DNA of 64,000 bases from Ancylobacter radicis. Lineage in GTDB: Bacteria > Pseudomonadota > Alphaproteobacteria > Rhizobiales > Xanthobacteraceae. Below are positions 1 to 62,057 of this stretch, piece by piece; position 1 is the first letter of the stretch, and each line of letters starts with the position of its first letter. Both the position numbers and the translations under genes were made by a program. The stretch spans positions 62,001-126,000 of the forward strand of contig NZ_JAHCQH010000017.1 of NCBI RefSeq assembly GCF_018449475.1, written 5' to 3'. The notes under the pieces are model-generated. The model was not told the origin of the DNA and made no database searches. It worked only from the letters and a program-made list of their open reading frames with translations.

Positions 1-434
1 ATGCGGCGGGTCACCACGCCCTGCCCGCTCGCCCGCTCGATCTCCACCGCCAGGAAGCGATCCCCACCGTCGATGAACCGGCCATGGCCGGAGAAGACGC
101 GCCCCTCCCCCGGCTCGAAGGTCGCGAGCACCGTGCCGGCGCGGCGGTCGAACAGGATGGCGGTGGTGCCGGGCCGGCGCGCGACCGCGATGGCGGTACG
201 CCCGTCCGGGCAGGGCTCGACCCAGTGCAGCCGCTGCCCGCCCAGCCCGACCGGCGTCGCGTTAAGGTCCGGGGACAGCACCACCGGCGCGAAGCCCTCG
301 CCAATGCCCGCCGTGCCGACCCATTCGGCGTCGAGCTGATGATCCTGCGCATGGGCGGCGCCGCCGAACAGCACGCGCGGGGCCGCCGCGAGAGCGCCGA
401 GCACGCTGCGACGGGAAAGTTCGAACAGGCCCAT
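1..434 (-). CDS. DUF1513 family protein (N-terminal part, cut by window edge)
   Basis: About 144 N-terminal codons are present; the gene continues past the left edge. The start has a twin-arginine-like leader (LSRRSVLGAL, then a hydrophobic run ending in AHAQ), so export to the periplasm is likely. After it come short beta-propeller-like strands (PCPDGRTAIAVARRPGTTA, ILFDRRAGTVL), as expected of DUF1513, a family usually encoded beside imelysin and di-heme genes. It is the last gene I can see in a five-gene minus-strand operon, 10 nt after the second imelysin gene. Its biochemical role is unknown. The family name rests on remembered sequence pattern and on context. Confidence 0.75.
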   Translation of the reverse strand, partial: MGLFELSRRSVLGALAAAPRVLFGGAAHAQDHQLDAEWVGTAGIGEGFAPVVLSPDLNATPVGLGGQRLHWVEPCPDGRTAIAVARRPGTTAILFDRRAGTVLATFEPGEGRVFSGHGRFIDGGDRFLAVEIERASGQGVVTRR

Positions 435-444
435 GCTCGTCTCC

Positions 445-1569
445 TCAGTCGCCGTCGAGCGCGTTGAAGCCGAGCGGCACGCCGAGGCCGGAGGCCAGCG
501 GACTGGCAACGCTCGCCTGCGCCGCCTTGAAGGCGGTGATCGCGGCCTGAAGCGTCTTGCGCCCCGCGGCCGTGGTCGCCGCCTCGCCAATGTCCTCGGG
601 CAACGCCTTCGCCGCCGCGTCGGCCCCCGCCATGGTCTTCTCGATAGTCGCGCGGCCCTTGGCGTCCAGCCCCACGGCGAGCCTGTTGGCCAGATCGTCG
701 GCGCTGGCGATGATGGCGAGGATGGTCGCATGCGAGAGGCCGCTGCGCCGGCGGTCCGCCAGCAGCGGCTTGGCGTCGTCCGCGCTCTTGCCCAGCACCA
801 CCAGAAGACGCTGATCCACCACGCGCTGATAGGCGCCGGCCAGATCGGTGACGATCTGGCTCAGCAGGGCCTCGGGATCCGGGAAATAGACGGCGTCGGA
901 TTTGCCGGCCAGCAATTGCGCCAGCAACCCCGACTGCCGGTCGCCCCAGCCCTCACGCAGCTCAGCGGCGATGGTCGCGAGGTTGAGCGCGATCGCCCGG
1001 CCAAGGGCGCAGCGACGCGTTGCCTCCGCCCCAACCACCAGCGCCGCCGCCGCGCCGTCATCATAGAGGACGCGCTCCAGCGCCGGCAGGCCCTGCACCG
1101 CCGCGCTCAGACGGAAGAAGCGGTCCGGCCCCAGCCGCTCATCGGTCGCGTCGCCGATGATCTCGGCCACCGAACGGCCGACCGCGTTGCGCCGCTCCGG
1201 GAACAGGTTGAAGCGATCCGGCCGCAGCGACAGCATGACCGGGCCGAAGGTGATGAACTCGACCGAGGCCCAGGCGTCGGAGACCGCGGCGAAGCGGGTC
1301 TTGAGTTCGGCGACGCCCTCCGCTGTCGGTTTGGCGCAGAAGGTCTCCCATGCTTTTTGCTGGGATCGGGTGGCGGCGAGCAGCGCGTCATAGCGCGGCA
1401 GCAGCCATTGCTCGACCACCTCGGGCGCGGAGATGACGGCGGCATTGGCCCGGCTGACCAGCAGGCCCGAGAGCAAAGCCGTCGCGCCGGCGACGCCCGG
1501 CAGTGCTTGCGCCGCGTGACCGATCTGGCTTGCCAGCGCGAGCGCCAGCGCAAAGGGAGAACGGTTCAT
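445..1569 (-). CDS. Imelysin (peptidase M75-like) family protein, second copy
   Basis: The 374-residue protein has an N-terminal hydrophobic export signal (residues 1-43). It carries the alpha-helical imelysin fold signatures, including the paired motif GLPALERVLY in the second half-repeat. Imelysins are periplasmic or outer-membrane-associated proteins of bacterial iron uptake, related to the EfeO M75 domain. The GxHxxE metal motif of the family reads G-L-P-A-L-E here, so the histidine is absent, whereas the first imelysin of this operon keeps it. The gene lies 12 nt after the di-heme gene and is surely cotranscribed with it. A role as a paralogous or partner subunit is inference. Confidence 0.88.
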   Translation of the reverse strand: MNRSPFALALALASQIGHAAQALPGVAGATALLSGLLVSRANAAVISAPEVVEQWLLPRYDALLAATRSQQKAWETFCAKPTAEGVAELKTRFAAVSDAWASVEFITFGPVMLSLRPDRFNLFPERRNAVGRSVAEIIGDATDERLGPDRFFRLSAAVQGLPALERVLYDDGAAAALVVGAEATRRCALGRAIALNLATIAAELREGWGDRQSGLLAQLLAGKSDAVYFPDPEALLSQIVTDLAGAYQRVVDQRLLVVLGKSADDAKPLLADRRRSGLSHATILAIIASADDLANRLAVGLDAKGRATIEKTMAGADAAAKALPEDIGEAATTAAGRKTLQAAITAFKAAQASVASPLASGLGVPLGFNALDGD

Positions 1570-1581
1570 TGGCGGCCTCGG

Positions 1582-2895
1582 TCAGAGTGAAGACACATAG
1601 TCGAGCAGGAGACGGCGCTGGCGGTCATCCAGCGCCTCGAAGCGGGCACGGGCCCCGGCGGCCTCGCCGTCGTGCCAGCGCACCGCCTCCGCGACGGTCG
1701 CGGCGCGGCCGTCATGCAGCAGGCCCTGAGCGCGCGCCAGCGAACGCGACAGGCCGGCCAGCGGCGCGGTGCGCCATTCAGCGGCATCCGCTCCCGGCAC
1801 GCCGGAACTGTCCGCCAGCCCCTCGCCCATGTCGTGCAGCAGCACATCGGTGAACAGGGCAAGGCTGGCGCCATCGCGCGTCGGCAGCGAGGGGCGATGG
1901 CAGGTGGCGCAGCCGGTGGCGGCGAACAGCTTTTCGCCGCGCCGGTCGGGCTCGCTGGCTGGCACCTTCAGGCTGCGCAGATAGGTGACGATGCGGGAGA
2001 CGATGGCGTCGGAGATTTCCGGCTCGCCTTCCGCCTCGCGGCCATGAGGGGCGTTGCGGCAGGCGGTCTGCGCGTCCGTGCAATCGCCCCAAGGCTCGGG
2101 GCGCAGCGGCGTCGAGAGGCCGAGATCGAGCGCAAAGGCTTCCGATGTCTGGCTGGCGAGATCGGCATGGCTCGCCTTCCAGCCGAAGCGGCCGATCATC
2201 GAGCCCCCTTCGGCGTGGTCGAGCCGGCGCGCGCGTCCCCGCACGCCGTCGCCATCGCGGTCCTGCGGGTCTTCCAGCGCGAGAATGGCGGCATCGTCGA
2301 CGCGCTCCAGCCGACCGCGTCCGCGCAAATCCGGCGCCGAGCGCAGCGAGATATGGGTGGCGGGATCGAGCGGGCCATAGCCCGGATCATCCGCGCGCGG
2401 CACGCGACGCCTCTTCTCATCGGCGACGCCAATAGTGCCCTCGGCGGGCACGCCCGGCAGCGTCATGGTCTCCAGCCGGTGGCCATAGACCGGGTCCGGC
2501 CCGCCATCGGGCTGGAACAGGGACAGCACCAGCCCGAGCCCTTCCGGCCGCCCCTCCGCATTCACCGCCGTCGCGCCCCGGCCGGCGCCGAGATGGCAGG
2601 CGGAACAGGAGCGGGCATCGAACAGCGGACCCAGACCGTCATTGGCGCGGGTGGAACTCGGCGCCGGCACCCAGGGCCGCTCGAACAGCGCCTTGCCGAT
2701 GGCGACGTCCAGCCCGTCCTCCGCGGCGGTGGCGGGGAGCGGCAGCAGCAGGGAGGCGAGCAGCAGGGGGATGGCGCCGATCCGGGATACAGCGGAGACT
2801 CCGCCGAAGGCGCCCTCCCCCTCACCACAGCCCTCTCCCCGACGGGGCGAGGGAGCAAGCTCGGCATGGCCGAATAGGCGTGAGCGGGCACCCAT
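1582..2895 (-). CDS. Di-heme DUF1111 family c-type cytochrome (thiol oxidoreductase-like)
   Basis: The 437-residue protein has two heme c attachment sites, CSACH (97-101) and CATCH (329-333). It also has the family's DRDGDGVRGR calcium-like loop (212-221) and the GRFGWKA motif. A hydrophobic signal segment (about 39-58, ending ATAAED) predicts periplasmic export. In known operons this family sits with imelysins and is thought to pass electrons during iron acquisition; the exact reaction is not settled. The ATG overlaps the stop of the multicopper oxidase gene (TGATG), suggesting translational coupling. Residues about 12-30, upstream of the signal, are encoded by a dispersed palindromic repeat and are not family sequence. 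No other ATG/GTG/TTG start lies between that repeat and the signal segment. Confidence 0.88.
   Translation of the reverse strand: MGARSRLFGHAELAPSPRRGEGCGEGEGAFGGVSAVSRIGAIPLLLASLLLPLPATAAEDGLDVAIGKALFERPWVPAPSSTRANDGLGPLFDARSCSACHLGAGRGATAVNAEGRPEGLGLVLSLFQPDGGPDPVYGHRLETMTLPGVPAEGTIGVADEKRRRVPRADDPGYGPLDPATHISLRSAPDLRGRGRLERVDDAAILALEDPQDRDGDGVRGRARRLDHAEGGSMIGRFGWKASHADLASQTSEAFALDLGLSTPLRPEPWGDCTDAQTACRNAPHGREAEGEPEISDAIVSRIVTYLRSLKVPASEPDRRGEKLFAATGCATCHRPSLPTRDGASLALFTDVLLHDMGEGLADSSGVPGADAAEWRTAPLAGLSRSLARAQGLLHDGRAATVAEAVRWHDGEAAGARARFEALDDRQRRLLLDYVSSL
2831..2853. repeat. Palindromic CCCTC-CCCCG dispersed repeat inside a coding region
   Basis: CCCTC t CCCCG a CGGGG c GAGGG forms a hairpin of two 5-bp arms, flanked by GGCGCCCTCCCCCTCACC-type sequence. 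This resembles the short interspersed palindromes common in GC-rich alphaproteobacterial intergenic DNA. Here it lies inside the 5' end of the DUF1111 gene, between start codon and signal peptide. Confidence 0.6.
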
Positions 2896-4352
2896 CACAC
2901 CACTCGGAACCAGCCCATCATGCCGGTCTCCATATGTTCGAGGATGTGACAGTGGAAGACCCAGTCGCCGGGCGCGGCGACGAAGGCGATGTCGACCGCC
3001 TCGCCGGGCTGCACCAGCACGGTGTCGGCGAAATGCAGCGGCAGGCGCCCCTTGCTGGAACCGAGCACGGCGAAGGCGTGGCCGTGCAGGTGGATCGGGT
3101 GGGGAAAGCGTGTCTCGTTCTTGATGGTGATGCGGTAGCTCTTGCCCACCTCCATGCGCGCCAGCGGCGGCGGCAAGCCGAGCCGCGTGCCGGCCGACCA
3201 GGAAACCTGGCCGATCGACCAATAGGTCGCCGCGCCCACGCAGAAGCTCGCCACCAGCGCCTTGGCGAGCGGATCGTCGGGCGGCAGGCCGAGTTCCTGA
3301 ACGGCGGCATCGGTCGCCTGCTGGAGGGTGAAGGAGAGCGCCTCGGCCTTCTTCAGCTCCGGCGCCGGCAGCGTGGCGGGCGGCAGGGCGAGCGGACCCT
3401 TGCGCGGCTTTGTCCGGCCCCGCGCGGTGAGCGTGGCGAAGGCATAGACATCGGATGCGCGGTAGTCGCCCAGCGTCACCGGCGCGCCTGAGGCCGGCAT
3501 GCGCACATGCAGGTCGATGCGCTGCGCCGGACCCATGCGCCAGATGCCATCCGGCAGGTCGTCGAGCTTCACCGGCTTCAGCGCATGGCCGTCCACAGCG
3601 ATCAGCCAGGCCTCGCCGCCCTCGACGCCAATATCCATCACGCGGGTGGAGTCGACATTGAGGATGCGCAGGCGCACATCGCCGCCGGCGGGAGCGTCGA
3701 GCGCGAGGCGCGGCTGGCCGTTGCAGGTGCGGGTGGCGCCATAGGTGCCGGCCTTGGAGGCGCCGTCGGCCTCGGTGAGCGGCAGGAAGCTGCCGTCCTC
3801 GGCGAGGCGCCAGTCCTTCAGGCAGAGCACATGCTCGGCATCGAAGCGCGGGTCGCGCGGATCCTCGACGATGAGCACGCCGACCAACCCGCGCCCGGCC
3901 TGCCCGGTCTCGTCGCAATGGGGGTGGAAGAAAAAGGTGCCGGGATCGTCCAGCGGCAACTGGTGGACGAAGCGCCCGCCCGGCTCGACCAGCGGCTGGG
4001 TCAGCGGGGGCACGCCGTCGAATTCGTTCGGCATGCGGATGCCGTGGAAATGCAGCGAGCTGCCCTCATGAAGCCCGTTCGCATAGGTCGCCTCAAGCCG
4101 GGCGCCGCGTGGCAGACGGATGAGGCGGAAGGGCTCGCCATCATAGGCGTAACAGGGCGTCGCAGGTCCGTCCGGGCCGAGCAGGCGCATGTCCAGCGGG
4201 CCGGCGGCGAGTGTCAGCCGGTCGGTCGGCAGGAAAGGCGCCGGCGCGCGCGCCTGCCCAAGGCGCGAGGGAGCGATCGCTCCCAGCGCACCGAGGGCCG
4301 CGCCCGCGCCGAGAAAGGCGCGGCGCGAGAGACCCGCGCCGCGTGACCTCAT
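2895..4352 (-). CDS. Multicopper oxidase (SufI/CueO-like), Tat-exported
   Basis: The 485-residue protein carries a twin-arginine leader (GLSRRAFLGAG, residues 7-17). All four copper-binding motifs are visible: HFHG (101-104), HPH (143-145), HPIHLHGH near 415, and HCHILEHMETGM (467-478). The last supplies the T1 Cys and a Met axial ligand. Three cupredoxin domains are therefore expected. Such enzymes couple substrate oxidation, often Fe(II) or Cu(I), to reduction of oxygen to water. The gene lies between imelysin and di-heme genes, 7 nt after the imelysin stop, so a periplasmic ferroxidase is the most economical reading. Its substrate is inference. A copper-tolerance role is the alternative, but no other copper gene is nearby. 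Confidence 0.93.
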   Translation of the reverse strand: MRSRGAGLSRRAFLGAGAALGALGAIAPSRLGQARAPAPFLPTDRLTLAAGPLDMRLLGPDGPATPCYAYDGEPFRLIRLPRGARLEATYANGLHEGSSLHFHGIRMPNEFDGVPPLTQPLVEPGGRFVHQLPLDDPGTFFFHPHCDETGQAGRGLVGVLIVEDPRDPRFDAEHVLCLKDWRLAEDGSFLPLTEADGASKAGTYGATRTCNGQPRLALDAPAGGDVRLRILNVDSTRVMDIGVEGGEAWLIAVDGHALKPVKLDDLPDGIWRMGPAQRIDLHVRMPASGAPVTLGDYRASDVYAFATLTARGRTKPRKGPLALPPATLPAPELKKAEALSFTLQQATDAAVQELGLPPDDPLAKALVASFCVGAATYWSIGQVSWSAGTRLGLPPPLARMEVGKSYRITIKNETRFPHPIHLHGHAFAVLGSSKGRLPLHFADTVLVQPGEAVDIAFVAAPGDWVFHCHILEHMETGMMGWFRVV

Positions 4353-4359
4353 GACGGCC

Positions 4360-5655
4360 TCACTGACCGACCTTGGAGGGGTCGTCCAGGCTGTCCGAAC
4401 CCTCGACCTTGATCTTCAGCTTCAGCGCGGCGACCACGCCCTCGAAGCCGCGGGTCTGGGCGACCAGCGAATCGACGCCGGTCTGCACCAGCTTGTTGCC
4501 GGCCGCGTTGCCCTCGCCGATCATCTGGTCATAGGCTTCCTTGCCGCTGTCGGCCTCGTCCTTGATCGCCTTCAGCGCGGCGAGCGCGGCGTCGACCTTG
4601 GCGTCGGCTTCCTTCGCCGCGTCCGGCGCCTTGGCGGCCGCATAGGCGGCGACCGAGGGGCCTTCCACGACCGTGCCATCCACGCGGGTGTACTTGCCGC
4701 GATAGATCGAGGCGATGCCCAGCTCGTCGTAATAGTGCGAGTTGTGGGTGTTGTCGGAGAAGCAGTCATGCTCCTCCTCCGGGTCGTGCAGGATGAGGCC
4801 GAGCTTCATCCGCTCGCCCGCCAGCTCGCCATAGGAGAGCGAGCCGAGGCCGGTGAGGATGGTGCCGAGCGCGGCCTTGTCCTTCTGCTTGAGCACGGCG
4901 GCGCGGGCCTTGCCCTTGGCGCTCCACGCCTTGGCCATGTCCTCGAGGTCCGACACGAGCAGGTCGGTCGCGGCCTTGAGATAGGCGGCGCGGCGGTCGC
5001 AATGGCCGTTGGTGCAGTTGGCGGTGTCGTAATCGGTGGCGGGACGCTTGCCGGCGCCCGGCCCGGTGCCGTTCAGATCCTGGCCCCACAGCAGGAACTC
5101 GATGGCGTGATAGCCGATGGCGACGTTCGACTCGACGCCGCCGGCCTCCTGCAGGCTGTCGAGCAGCTTGGGGGTGATCTTGCTGGCGTCGATGGTCTTC
5201 TTGCCGACGCGGATCTTGGTGTTGGCGATCACATTGGCGGTGTAGAGCGGGTTCTCGTCCGAGGCGTCGCCATAGGACTTGGCGTCGACATAGTCGATCA
5301 GACCCTCGTCGAGCGGCCAGGCGTTCACGCGTCCTTCCCAATCGTCGACGATGGCGTTGCCGAAGCGGAAGCCCTCGGTCTGCTGGTAGGGCACGCGGGC
5401 GGCCTTCCACGCAGCCTTGGCCGCGTCGAGATTGGCCTGCGTCGGCGCGGCGATGAAAGCGTTGACCGCGCTCTGCAGGTCCTTGGCCGTCTTCAGGCTG
5501 TCGCCATACATCGCCTCGGCGATGTTGGCATAGGTGACGATAACGTCGTGCACCTTCGGCGCCGCGGTCTGCGCCGCGGCCGGACCGGCGGCGATGATGG
5601 CGCCGAGCGCAACGGCGGCCAGCAGCGGTGCGGCAAACAAGGTTTTGGCTCGCAT
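4360..5655 (-). CDS. Imelysin family iron-uptake protein (EfeO/IrpA-like)
   Basis: The 431-residue protein has a classical signal peptide ending AAAQTAAP (about residue 28). The metal motif G-Y-H-A-I-E is intact at 181-186 and followed by FLLWGQDL. The motif FSDNTHNSH after HDC is typical of IrpA-type imelysins. The start is set by a strong ribosome site (GGGAGGAG, 5 nt before ATG). This is the first gene of the operon imelysin - multicopper oxidase - DUF1111 - imelysin - DUF1513. Proteins of this family bind iron in the periplasm. No EfeU-type permease lies inside the window; one could sit beyond the left edge. Confidence 0.93.
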   Translation of the reverse strand: MRAKTLFAAPLLAAVALGAIIAAGPAAAQTAAPKVHDVIVTYANIAEAMYGDSLKTAKDLQSAVNAFIAAPTQANLDAAKAAWKAARVPYQQTEGFRFGNAIVDDWEGRVNAWPLDEGLIDYVDAKSYGDASDENPLYTANVIANTKIRVGKKTIDASKITPKLLDSLQEAGGVESNVAIGYHAIEFLLWGQDLNGTGPGAGKRPATDYDTANCTNGHCDRRAAYLKAATDLLVSDLEDMAKAWSAKGKARAAVLKQKDKAALGTILTGLGSLSYGELAGERMKLGLILHDPEEEHDCFSDNTHNSHYYDELGIASIYRGKYTRVDGTVVEGPSVAAYAAAKAPDAAKEADAKVDAALAALKAIKDEADSGKEAYDQMIGEGNAAGNKLVQTGVDSLVAQTRGFEGVVAALKLKIKVEGSDSLDDPSKVGQ

Positions 5656-5743
5656 GGTTTCTCCTCCCGTCGCCCCCACAGGCGTTCGTGATCGGAGACT
5701 CCTACGCCAGCCCTGCAAGACGTCGCAAGTGTTCGGCTGTCAG

Positions 5744-5760
5744 ATTAGAATTATTACATA
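5744..5760. promoter_or_regulatory. Irr/ICE-like half-palindrome in the iron operon promoter
   Basis: The 12-mer ATTAGAATTATT (5744-5755) is identical to the left part of the full palindrome upstream of the suf operon; the right arm here is degenerate. On the minus strand it lies downstream of a plausible promoter: TTGACG at 5797-5792, then a 17-nt spacer, then TTGAAT at 5774-5769. That is a position where a bound regulator would block transcription. Similarity to the Irr iron-control element is from memory of its TTAGAA..TTCTAA form. Confidence 0.5.
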
Positions 5761-5828
5761 CTTTCGATATTCAAAGACCGCGCGGCGTGACCGTCAATAC
5801 GTTGCGTTACTTTTGACAGCGATGACAA

Positions 5829-6116
5829 TTATGACGCAGCGTCGAGAAGGGGTTGCAGCGCCTCGCGTAGGTCGTCATCCGAGACGCGCGCCAGCGGGCA
5901 ATAGAGCTTCGCCGCCTCGGTGCGCCGGCCCGGCCGCATCACCAGCACGACCGTCTCGGCTCCGCCGCAGGCCGGGTCACCGCAGGCGATCTCGGTGATC
6001 GACACGGTGGTGTCCTCGCCAACGCCGAGTATCGCCCGTGCCCGCGTCGCGAGTTCGCGCGCGGCGTCGGGGGCCGCTTCCTCGCTCTGCCCGCGACGGA
6101 AAAACAGACGTGCCAT
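5829..6116 (-). CDS. Small unrecognised protein with a CGDPACGG..ETVV motif
   Basis: The 95-residue protein starts at the ATG preceded by GGAGGAG. It has an Arg-rich N-terminus (MARLFFRRG) and a helix rich in Ala and Arg. A conserved-looking core EIACGDPACGGAETVVLVM follows, then a C-terminal helical part (SDDDLREALQPLL). The two cysteines, five residues apart, could bind a metal or form a disulfide. There is no signal peptide, so it is probably cytoplasmic. I do not recognise a function. It lies upstream of the iron operon in the same orientation and has its own ICE-like site, which suggests an iron-related role. That is inference. Confidence 0.65.
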   Translation of the reverse strand: MARLFFRRGQSEEAAPDAARELATRARAILGVGEDTTVSITEIACGDPACGGAETVVLVMRPGRRTEAAKLYCPLARVSDDDLREALQPLLDAAS

Positions 6117-6423
6117 CACGCTCCTCCTCAGGCCGGCGATGCCGTGCCCGCCAGCAGGTAAGCCCCGCCGCGCTCCGCCGCAAGCGCCGGACGCACCGCT
6201 GTCCGCCGCCAAACTATAGACGACTGTCACTGTTTAGAACTATAATAATAACGGAAGATAATCGTTGTTTATTCTCTTCGCTCCGAGTAATCATCTCCTC
6301 GCTGGCAGCTTCATCTAACCGCTGGCGACGTTATTGCTGCCGCTTTCTCAAAGCGGCACAGGTTTCGCGAGGCCCTTTCCCGGCAGGTCTCGTGAACCGC
6401 GCGGGACGATGGCACGCGCTCCC
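6117..6423. other. 307-bp intergenic region with AT-rich core
   Basis: No gene is visible. The stretch at about 6215-6345 is markedly richer in A and T than its surroundings and contains an ICE-like site (listed separately). It probably carries the promoter of the small minus-strand protein. The part nearer 6424 is the region downstream of the flavoprotein gene; no clear terminator with a T-run was seen. Confidence 0.5.
6233..6249. promoter_or_regulatory. Imperfect Irr/ICE-like palindrome upstream of small Cys protein
   Basis: TTTAGAACTATAATAAT matches the suf-promoter palindrome at 13 of 17 positions, including the left arm TTAGAA. It lies about 120 bp upstream of the minus-strand gene at 5829-6116. 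Confidence 0.4.
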
Positions 6424-61910: not shown

Positions 61911-62057
61911 CGCAAGGCCTCGGAAATCGCGCGCCGGGCGGGGCGCGCGCCTCGCGTCAAGATGCGGGGCAATGCGGCGATGTCGGGGCGGGCCCGGTGA
62001 AAAGCCCGGCAGGGGCGCGGGAAGTGTCACCCGCGTCGCCTCACCGGCGCGGTCCGA

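Follow-up and report, generated by a model that had tools for sequence, protein, structure and literature searches.

Several described systems of iron handling have an M75 (imelysin) domain, a copper protein or a heme protein. In EfeUOB and EfeUOB/M, an M75 domain stands alongside a cupredoxin function in periplasmic iron handling; EfeO unites cupredoxin and M75 (PMC9174327), and EfeB is of the dye-decolorizing peroxidase (DyP) type (PMC3577903). In yeast Fet3p-Ftr1p and in FtrABCD, a copper oxidase is coupled to iron uptake, according to PMC9174327 and PMC11966278. In the Pseudomonas aeruginosa operon PA4370-PA4373, a di-heme gene lies between two imelysin genes and no EfeU belongs to the operon, according to PMC3143127; the same text uses the name DUF1111 for a di-heme member in related operons, calls EfeB a DUF1111 member, and describes in IPPA a proline in place of the histidine of the GxHxxE motif, as in the second imelysin of the present locus (GLPALE). 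This locus is an operon at the left end of a 64,000-nucleotide stretch (the window, from base 62,001 onward of contig NZ_JAHCQH010000017.1) in the 4.2-Mb genome of Ancylobacter radicis. It encodes, in this order on the minus strand, an imelysin (IMP1), a multicopper oxidase (MCO), a di-heme c-type protein (DHOR), a second imelysin (IMP2) and a DUF1513 protein.

The features of imelysin operons, namely GxHxxE in the first imelysin, an altered motif in the second and a di-heme gene between them, are all found here. Compared with PA4370-PA4373, an MCO gene is added, placed between those of the first imelysin and the di-heme protein, and the DHOR is of a distinct type; compared with EfeUOB, the operon has no EfeU permease, a separate MCO takes the place of the EfeO cupredoxin domain, and a di-heme DHOR stands where EfeB would be of the DyP type. 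The imelysins themselves are not of the EfeO type, IMP1 and IMP2 matching PF09375 alone (IMP1 reaches 17.6 bits with the EfeO model, against a cut-off of 270). The tight five-gene operon of the original prediction is real: gene calls and Pfam place all five genes as proposed, spaced 7, 12 and 10 nt apart, and the candidate DHOR ATG shares one base with the MCO stop at 2895. No description of an MCO-bearing operon was found in the literature on imelysins, di-heme proteins and multicopper oxidases, with subscription papers mostly outside the scope of that search.

The oxidase recurs as a conserved part of the operon. Among 199 genomes of the window's order, which were searched for the five-gene order as had been proposed, IMP2 relatives occur in 97 and MCO relatives (E<=1e-60) in 71, at 77 places. 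IMP2 loci with up to 20 kb were fetched from 96 genomes besides that of the window; in 14 of these and in the window's genome the MCO lies between IMP1 and DHOR, and in a further genome (G120) a contig end cuts the cassette, leaving IMP1-MCO-DHOR. MCO cassettes are thus present in 16 of the 199 genomes, and the 15 complete ones all share order and strand. The IMP2 locus lacks the MCO in 80 genomes, of which 70 have the remaining four genes complete, and DUF1513 completes this plain cassette in the genomes examined; the other 10 lack at least one of the four, several at contig ends. As for the MCO places, 39 of the 77 were read as sequence. For the remaining 38, comparison by eye showed no IMP2 place nearby, but 13 of them belong to genomes that lack an IMP2 match and may hold a cut cassette.

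Among the best 80 of at least 552 MCO relatives in GTDB, found with patterns from cassette MCOs, 67 loci carry the complete set of five genes in the same order and on the same strand, 4 are partial and 9 hold the MCO alone; 67 of 80 is a figure for close relatives and no unbiased rate, because the loci were picked by likeness to the cassette MCO. The hosts include Ancylobacter, Xanthobacter, Azorhizobium, Aquabacter, Microvirga, Methylopila, Prosthecomicrobium, Kaistia, Azospirillum, Dongia and Thalassobaculum, and the closest named MCO relatives are those of Ancylobacter species (66-83% identity). An MCO profile at 1e-130 gave 15 matches in 398 Pseudomonadota genomes, all in the window's class, the number of genomes outside that class not being stated; 3 of these 15 loci, taken with flanks of about 1.5 kb, show cassette neighbours, 2 of them from the window's own genus. 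The recurrence of order and strand is more than chance. One Dongia metagenome-assembled genome (MAG; L201) has two IMP2 genes within the cassette.

The new observation is that the MCO is coupled to one type of DHOR. In a DHOR tree, the 73 plain sequences lie on one side of a branch marked 100, and the 16 MCO-cassette sequences lie on the other, together with those of two loci with an MCO-type DHOR and no MCO, L051 (genome G137) and L052 (genome G068). In an enlarged tree of 105 rows, with GTDB loci added, plain rows halved and near-copies dropped, 38 plain sequences are again separated by a branch marked 100, and an MCO stands beside 65 of the 67 others. The cut sequence L068 was omitted from the DHOR trees, and L084, L086 and L135 were omitted from some trees; five GTDB loci duplicating genomes already sampled were also excluded. 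The two types also differ in spacing: in DHORs beside an MCO the median heme-to-heme distance is 235 residues (range 205-268) versus 265 (246-269) in plain ones, and the median distance from heme 2 to LLHDMG is 23 versus 31 residues (73 and 70 rows, respectively).

The other genes do not follow this division uniformly. Approximately unbiased (AU) tests of the plain/MCO split, made on quick trees with no mixture model, do not reject it for IMP1 (p 0.095) and reject it for IMP2 (p 0.0002) and DUF1513 (p 1e-71), which rules out inheritance of the whole operon as one block; IMP1-MCO-DHOR therefore acts as a module joined to varying IMP2-DUF1513 halves. Since MCO presence follows the DHOR type and the histories of IMP2 and DUF1513 differ, the MCO and DHOR look, from these trees, like a co-inherited redox pair. 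The earlier suggestion of an oxidase next to a heme electron carrier is in this way sharpened into a tie to the di-heme protein specifically. Each of the 15 MCO-cassette genomes with an IMP2 match has a single one (E<=1e-10), which suggests that the MCO form stands in for the plain form. Oxidases apart from imelysin genes, named in the original prediction as a case that would speak against it, do occur, but as a minority among close relatives: the 9 lone GTDB loci, and 5 of the 21 MCOs in the cassette-type branch of the MCO tree. The more distant MCOs that were fetched, at 18 places (L137-L154), are all located elsewhere.

The reading given the best, roughly even, chance is that the operon handles iron in the periplasm without a permease of its own and is a stable variant of the imelysin/di-heme/DUF1513 set that carries an MCO-DHOR redox pair. 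Under iron limitation, the MCO would oxidise Fe(II), directly or through DHOR as electron carrier, with O2 reduced to water; the GxHxxE site of IMP1 would bind and present the iron, the propeller of DUF1513 and IMP2 might assist binding or assembly, and ferric iron would enter by unlinked ferric/siderophore ATP-binding cassette (ABC) importers and not by EfeU or FeoB. In this scheme the ferroxidase activity of the MCO, the direction of electron flow and the hand-over to ABC importers are what we infer.

The same coupling lends itself to a second, somewhat unlikely explanation, in which it is DHOR that first oxidises iron, or a ligand of iron, and the MCO, leaving iron untouched, drains the electrons of DHOR to oxygen. 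The tracking of DHOR type by MCO presence and the shorter spacings of the DHORs beside an MCO fit this arrangement, as does the relocated cassette-type MCO at L136:8086-10639, which adjoins a gene encoding a CxxCH product; in plain operons, however, DHOR operates without any MCO, and at L051 and L052 the MCO-type DHOR was kept without one.

The permease-free iron-handling reading draws on the genome as well as on the locus. Left of DUF1513 lie an aminotransferase gene (by Pfam) and then urea ABC transport and urease-like genes (by eye), and no permease of the FTR1 kind adjoins the operon, in agreement with the earlier remark that none was visible. The genome itself has no FTR1 above cut-off (best 15.7 bits versus 25.3) and no FeoB C-terminal domain (FeoB_C, PF07664); the latter was used in place of PF02421 because the 9 PF02421 places in this genome have frame lengths that, on the author's reading, suit general GTPases. 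The two usual ferrous permeases are thus absent from the host genome, and 12 of the 16 MCO-cassette genomes have neither FTR1 nor FeoB_C, so that an EfeU/FTR1 permease is not required, in contrast to Fet3p-Ftr1p and FtrABCD. A depletion of FeoB in MCO genomes is not significant (0 of 16 versus 12 of 80 plain; Fisher p 0.21). FecCD permeases and SBP_bac_6 binding proteins, present in the window's genome, are candidates for the inner-membrane step, with nothing that ties them to the operon. Regarding the two loci with an MCO-type DHOR alone, G137 has FeoB_C, and both FeoB_C and FTR1 are missing from G068.

Candidate operators upstream of IMP1 in several genera likewise favour an iron role. A perfect Irr-type box, TTTAGAA-G-TTCTAAA, precedes IMP1 in Microvirga roseola (L179), and putative Fur-family-type palindromes are found in Azospirillum (TGAGAATGATTCGCG), Aquabacter and Azorhizobium (ATGGAATAATTCCAT), Xanthobacter, Kaistia and one Rhodospirillaceae MAG; L218 has the candidate TGATAATCATTCTCA, and in Ancylobacter relatives a half-site, TTCTAAA or ATTCTAAT, occurs in the region upstream of IMP1. 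In the 87 sequences upstream of MCO-cassette IMP1, with expectations from shuffles, a motif like the iron control element (ICE; up to 3 mismatches) was counted in 8 versus 0.3 expected, a Fur-like motif (up to 6 mismatches) in 19 versus 2.0, and 7-1-7 palindromes with 6 or 7 pairs in 17 versus 4.3. Upstream of plain operons of the order sample, the perfect TGA-N9-TCA of the presumed RirA type is present in 17 of 73 sequences versus 3.0 expected.

These counts bear also on an improbable third explanation, that of a copper-tolerance oxidase of the CueO/CopA kind which shares the operon and shields imelysin and heme proteins from Cu(I). The MCO belongs to the superfamily of CueO and CopA, is distantly similar to CueO and copper_res_A, is likely exported by the twin-arginine translocation (Tat) pathway, and has an axial-Met spacing that is presumably that of CueO. 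Its scores nevertheless lie far under the NCBIfam cut-offs (CueO, 99.1 against 525 bits; copper_res_A for CopA, 146.6 against 479), its link to an imelysin operon holds over many genera, and a copper-type motif (up to 6 mismatches) is not enriched upstream of MCO cassettes (9 of 87 versus 11.3 expected). Among the 45 flanking clusters listed (at least 5 loci each), none beyond the five genes stood out across families; copper genes may still lie nearby, because these clusters are unannotated. The least probable explanation is a laccase whose substrates are catechol siderophores or phenolics of the soil and which thereby frees or protects iron. In its favour, the closest solved structures (6vow, 6vox and 4f7k) carry the labels multicopper oxidase, copper oxidase and laccase; against it, the linkage is to a di-heme gene, and flanks past the five genes are not common across families in the clusters listed, siderophore genes as such not having been sought.

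Against the permease-free iron-handling reading itself, several points have to be set. A ferroxidase of the Fet3p type has acidic residues for Fe(II) close to the T1 copper; the sequence match of Fet3p (1zpu) to the MCO is a partial one (E 3.4e-19). The 87 upstream sequences behind the operator counts are related, 5 genomes appear twice and the motif consensuses were entered by hand; the same copper-type motif exceeds expectation upstream of plain operons (13 of 73 versus 6.0), and the window itself has no clear Fur/Irr palindrome upstream of IMP1, its best ICE and Fur candidates having 4 and 8 mismatches. FTR1 is present in 4 of the 16 MCO-cassette genomes versus 7 of the 80 plain ones, either on a separate contig or at a distance of over 200 kb in those 4, so in some hosts there may be an unlinked FTR1 partner. 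Concerning the coupling, 17 of 73 DHORs from MCO cassettes (of Azospirillum, Dongia and similar types) have a loop of 28-33 residues after heme 2, close to the 31-32 of plain ones, and loop trimming is therefore not universal; nor is the pairing obligatory, because L051 and L052 retained the DHOR type alone. A clade of cassette MCOs only is rejected (AU p 0.0095), with five MCOs from other places nested among them, and the MCO has therefore moved out of, or into, the cassette. Taken with these points, the earlier iron-operon interpretation is partly supported.

Predicted structures add a feature of the DUF1513 protein (L003:13337-14347, minus strand), which is modelled as a seven-bladed propeller with a predicted local distance difference test score (pLDDT) of 92.8. 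Seven ligand-type residues (H41, H88, H135, H195, Y245, C287 and H332) are placed, by eye on the predicted strands, one per blade on the first strand, the tyrosine just before it. All 155 sequences have the five histidines, the tyrosine is kept in 151 of 155 and the cysteine in 77 of 77 rows from MCO operons and 69 of 78 from plain ones, so the ring is present in both kinds of operon. It is a possible metal or cofactor site in the model, and its geometry would resemble that of the CuZ site of nitrous oxide reductase. Fold matches (VIA-align) include N2O reductase (1fwx, Z 27.8), selenium-binding protein (2ece, Z 29.0), hydrazine synthase beta (5c2v_B, Z 28.6) and many WD40 proteins; propellers with seven blades are common, and having this fold in common is no evidence of function. 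The predicted DHOR structure (pLDDT 91.9) has one PDB fold match at E<0.001, hydrazine synthase gamma (5c2v_C), also its weak sequence match in the PDB (E 0.08), followed by weaker fold matches to bacterial di-heme peroxidases. The resemblance of DHOR and DUF1513 to hydrazine synthase gamma and beta is remote, with DHOR TM-scores of about 0.3, and implies no shared function. An unlikely, speculative extension of these models would be a soluble periplasmic machine of several cofactors, in which an MCO-DHOR oxidase pair and a metal ring of DUF1513, of a kind so far undescribed, load oxidised iron onto imelysin without a dedicated permease.

Features of the operon in the window (Pfam scores in bits)
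Feature	Position	Strand	Assignment
IMP1, imelysin with intact GxHxxE (GYHAIE)	4360..5655	-	PF09375, 294.6
MCO, Tat-type leader, four copper motifs (HCH-x3-H-x4-M)	2895..4352	-	Cu-oxidase_2, Cu-oxidase_3 and Cu-oxidase above cut-off
DHOR, di-heme c-type protein, MCO-linked, loop-trimmed type	1582..2895	-	PF06537, 167.8 (cut-off 22)
IMP2, second imelysin, GxPxxE variant (GLPALE)	445..1569	-	PF09375, 127.3
DUF1513, N-terminal part only	1..434	-	PF07433, 238.6
Region 5' of IMP1	5656..5831	-	no clear Fur/Irr palindrome in window

The sequence features of the individual genes largely agree with what had been read from the window. The intact GxHxxE motif of IMP1, which has an AAAQ-type signal peptide as judged by eye, is kept in all 82 IMP1 proteins of MCO cassettes and all 75 of plain operons. 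A Tat-exported oxidase had been proposed; the oxidase domains are there and the leader reads SRRAFLG, but the Tat model falls slightly short of its cut-off (16.5 versus 16.7 bits). The MCO has the copper motifs LHFHG, FHPH, HPIHLHG and HCHILEHMETGM; 71 of the 83 frames of cassette MCOs, which include cut or broken ones, show all four patterns, and the copper-ligand His, Cys and Met are invariant among 16 cassette MCOs. In the protein first named a two-heme DUF1111 protein, the two hemes stand (CSACH and CATCH; all 80 DHOR frames of MCO cassettes have two CxxCH), and the name is refined to DHOR of current Pfam, of which DUF1111 is presumably the older name. The second imelysin, predicted as such, is confirmed. 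DUF1513 is also confirmed, with a Tat-type leader (SRRSVLG, by eye), but it crosses the window edge and continues for 667 nt to the left, ending at L003:13334.

The DHOR frame between 2733 and 2895, ahead of the signal peptide, is GC-rich with inverted repeats and is perhaps a repetitive extragenic palindromic (REP)-type element read into the leader; the true start may be situated downstream of the candidate ATG. A hairpin pattern entered by hand gave no copy in the window. Upstream of IMP1, a small open reading frame (ORF; 5829-6173, minus strand) has no Pfam match, and a counterpart occupies the same place in 14 MCO loci, presumably of the Ancylobacter group. A cluster of 195-aa ORFs, mostly just upstream of the imelysin operon and on the same strand, occurs at 26 loci, 3 of them with the MCO (e.g. 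L042:14641-15225); one member tested gave no Pfam match.

The biochemical role of imelysins is unsettled, and an oxidase inherited with one particular partner offers a direct handle on that role. If the permease-free reading is true, the operon would represent copper-dependent iron handling without an FTR1 permease, and the ligand ring of DUF1513 provides a lead for a family of unknown function.

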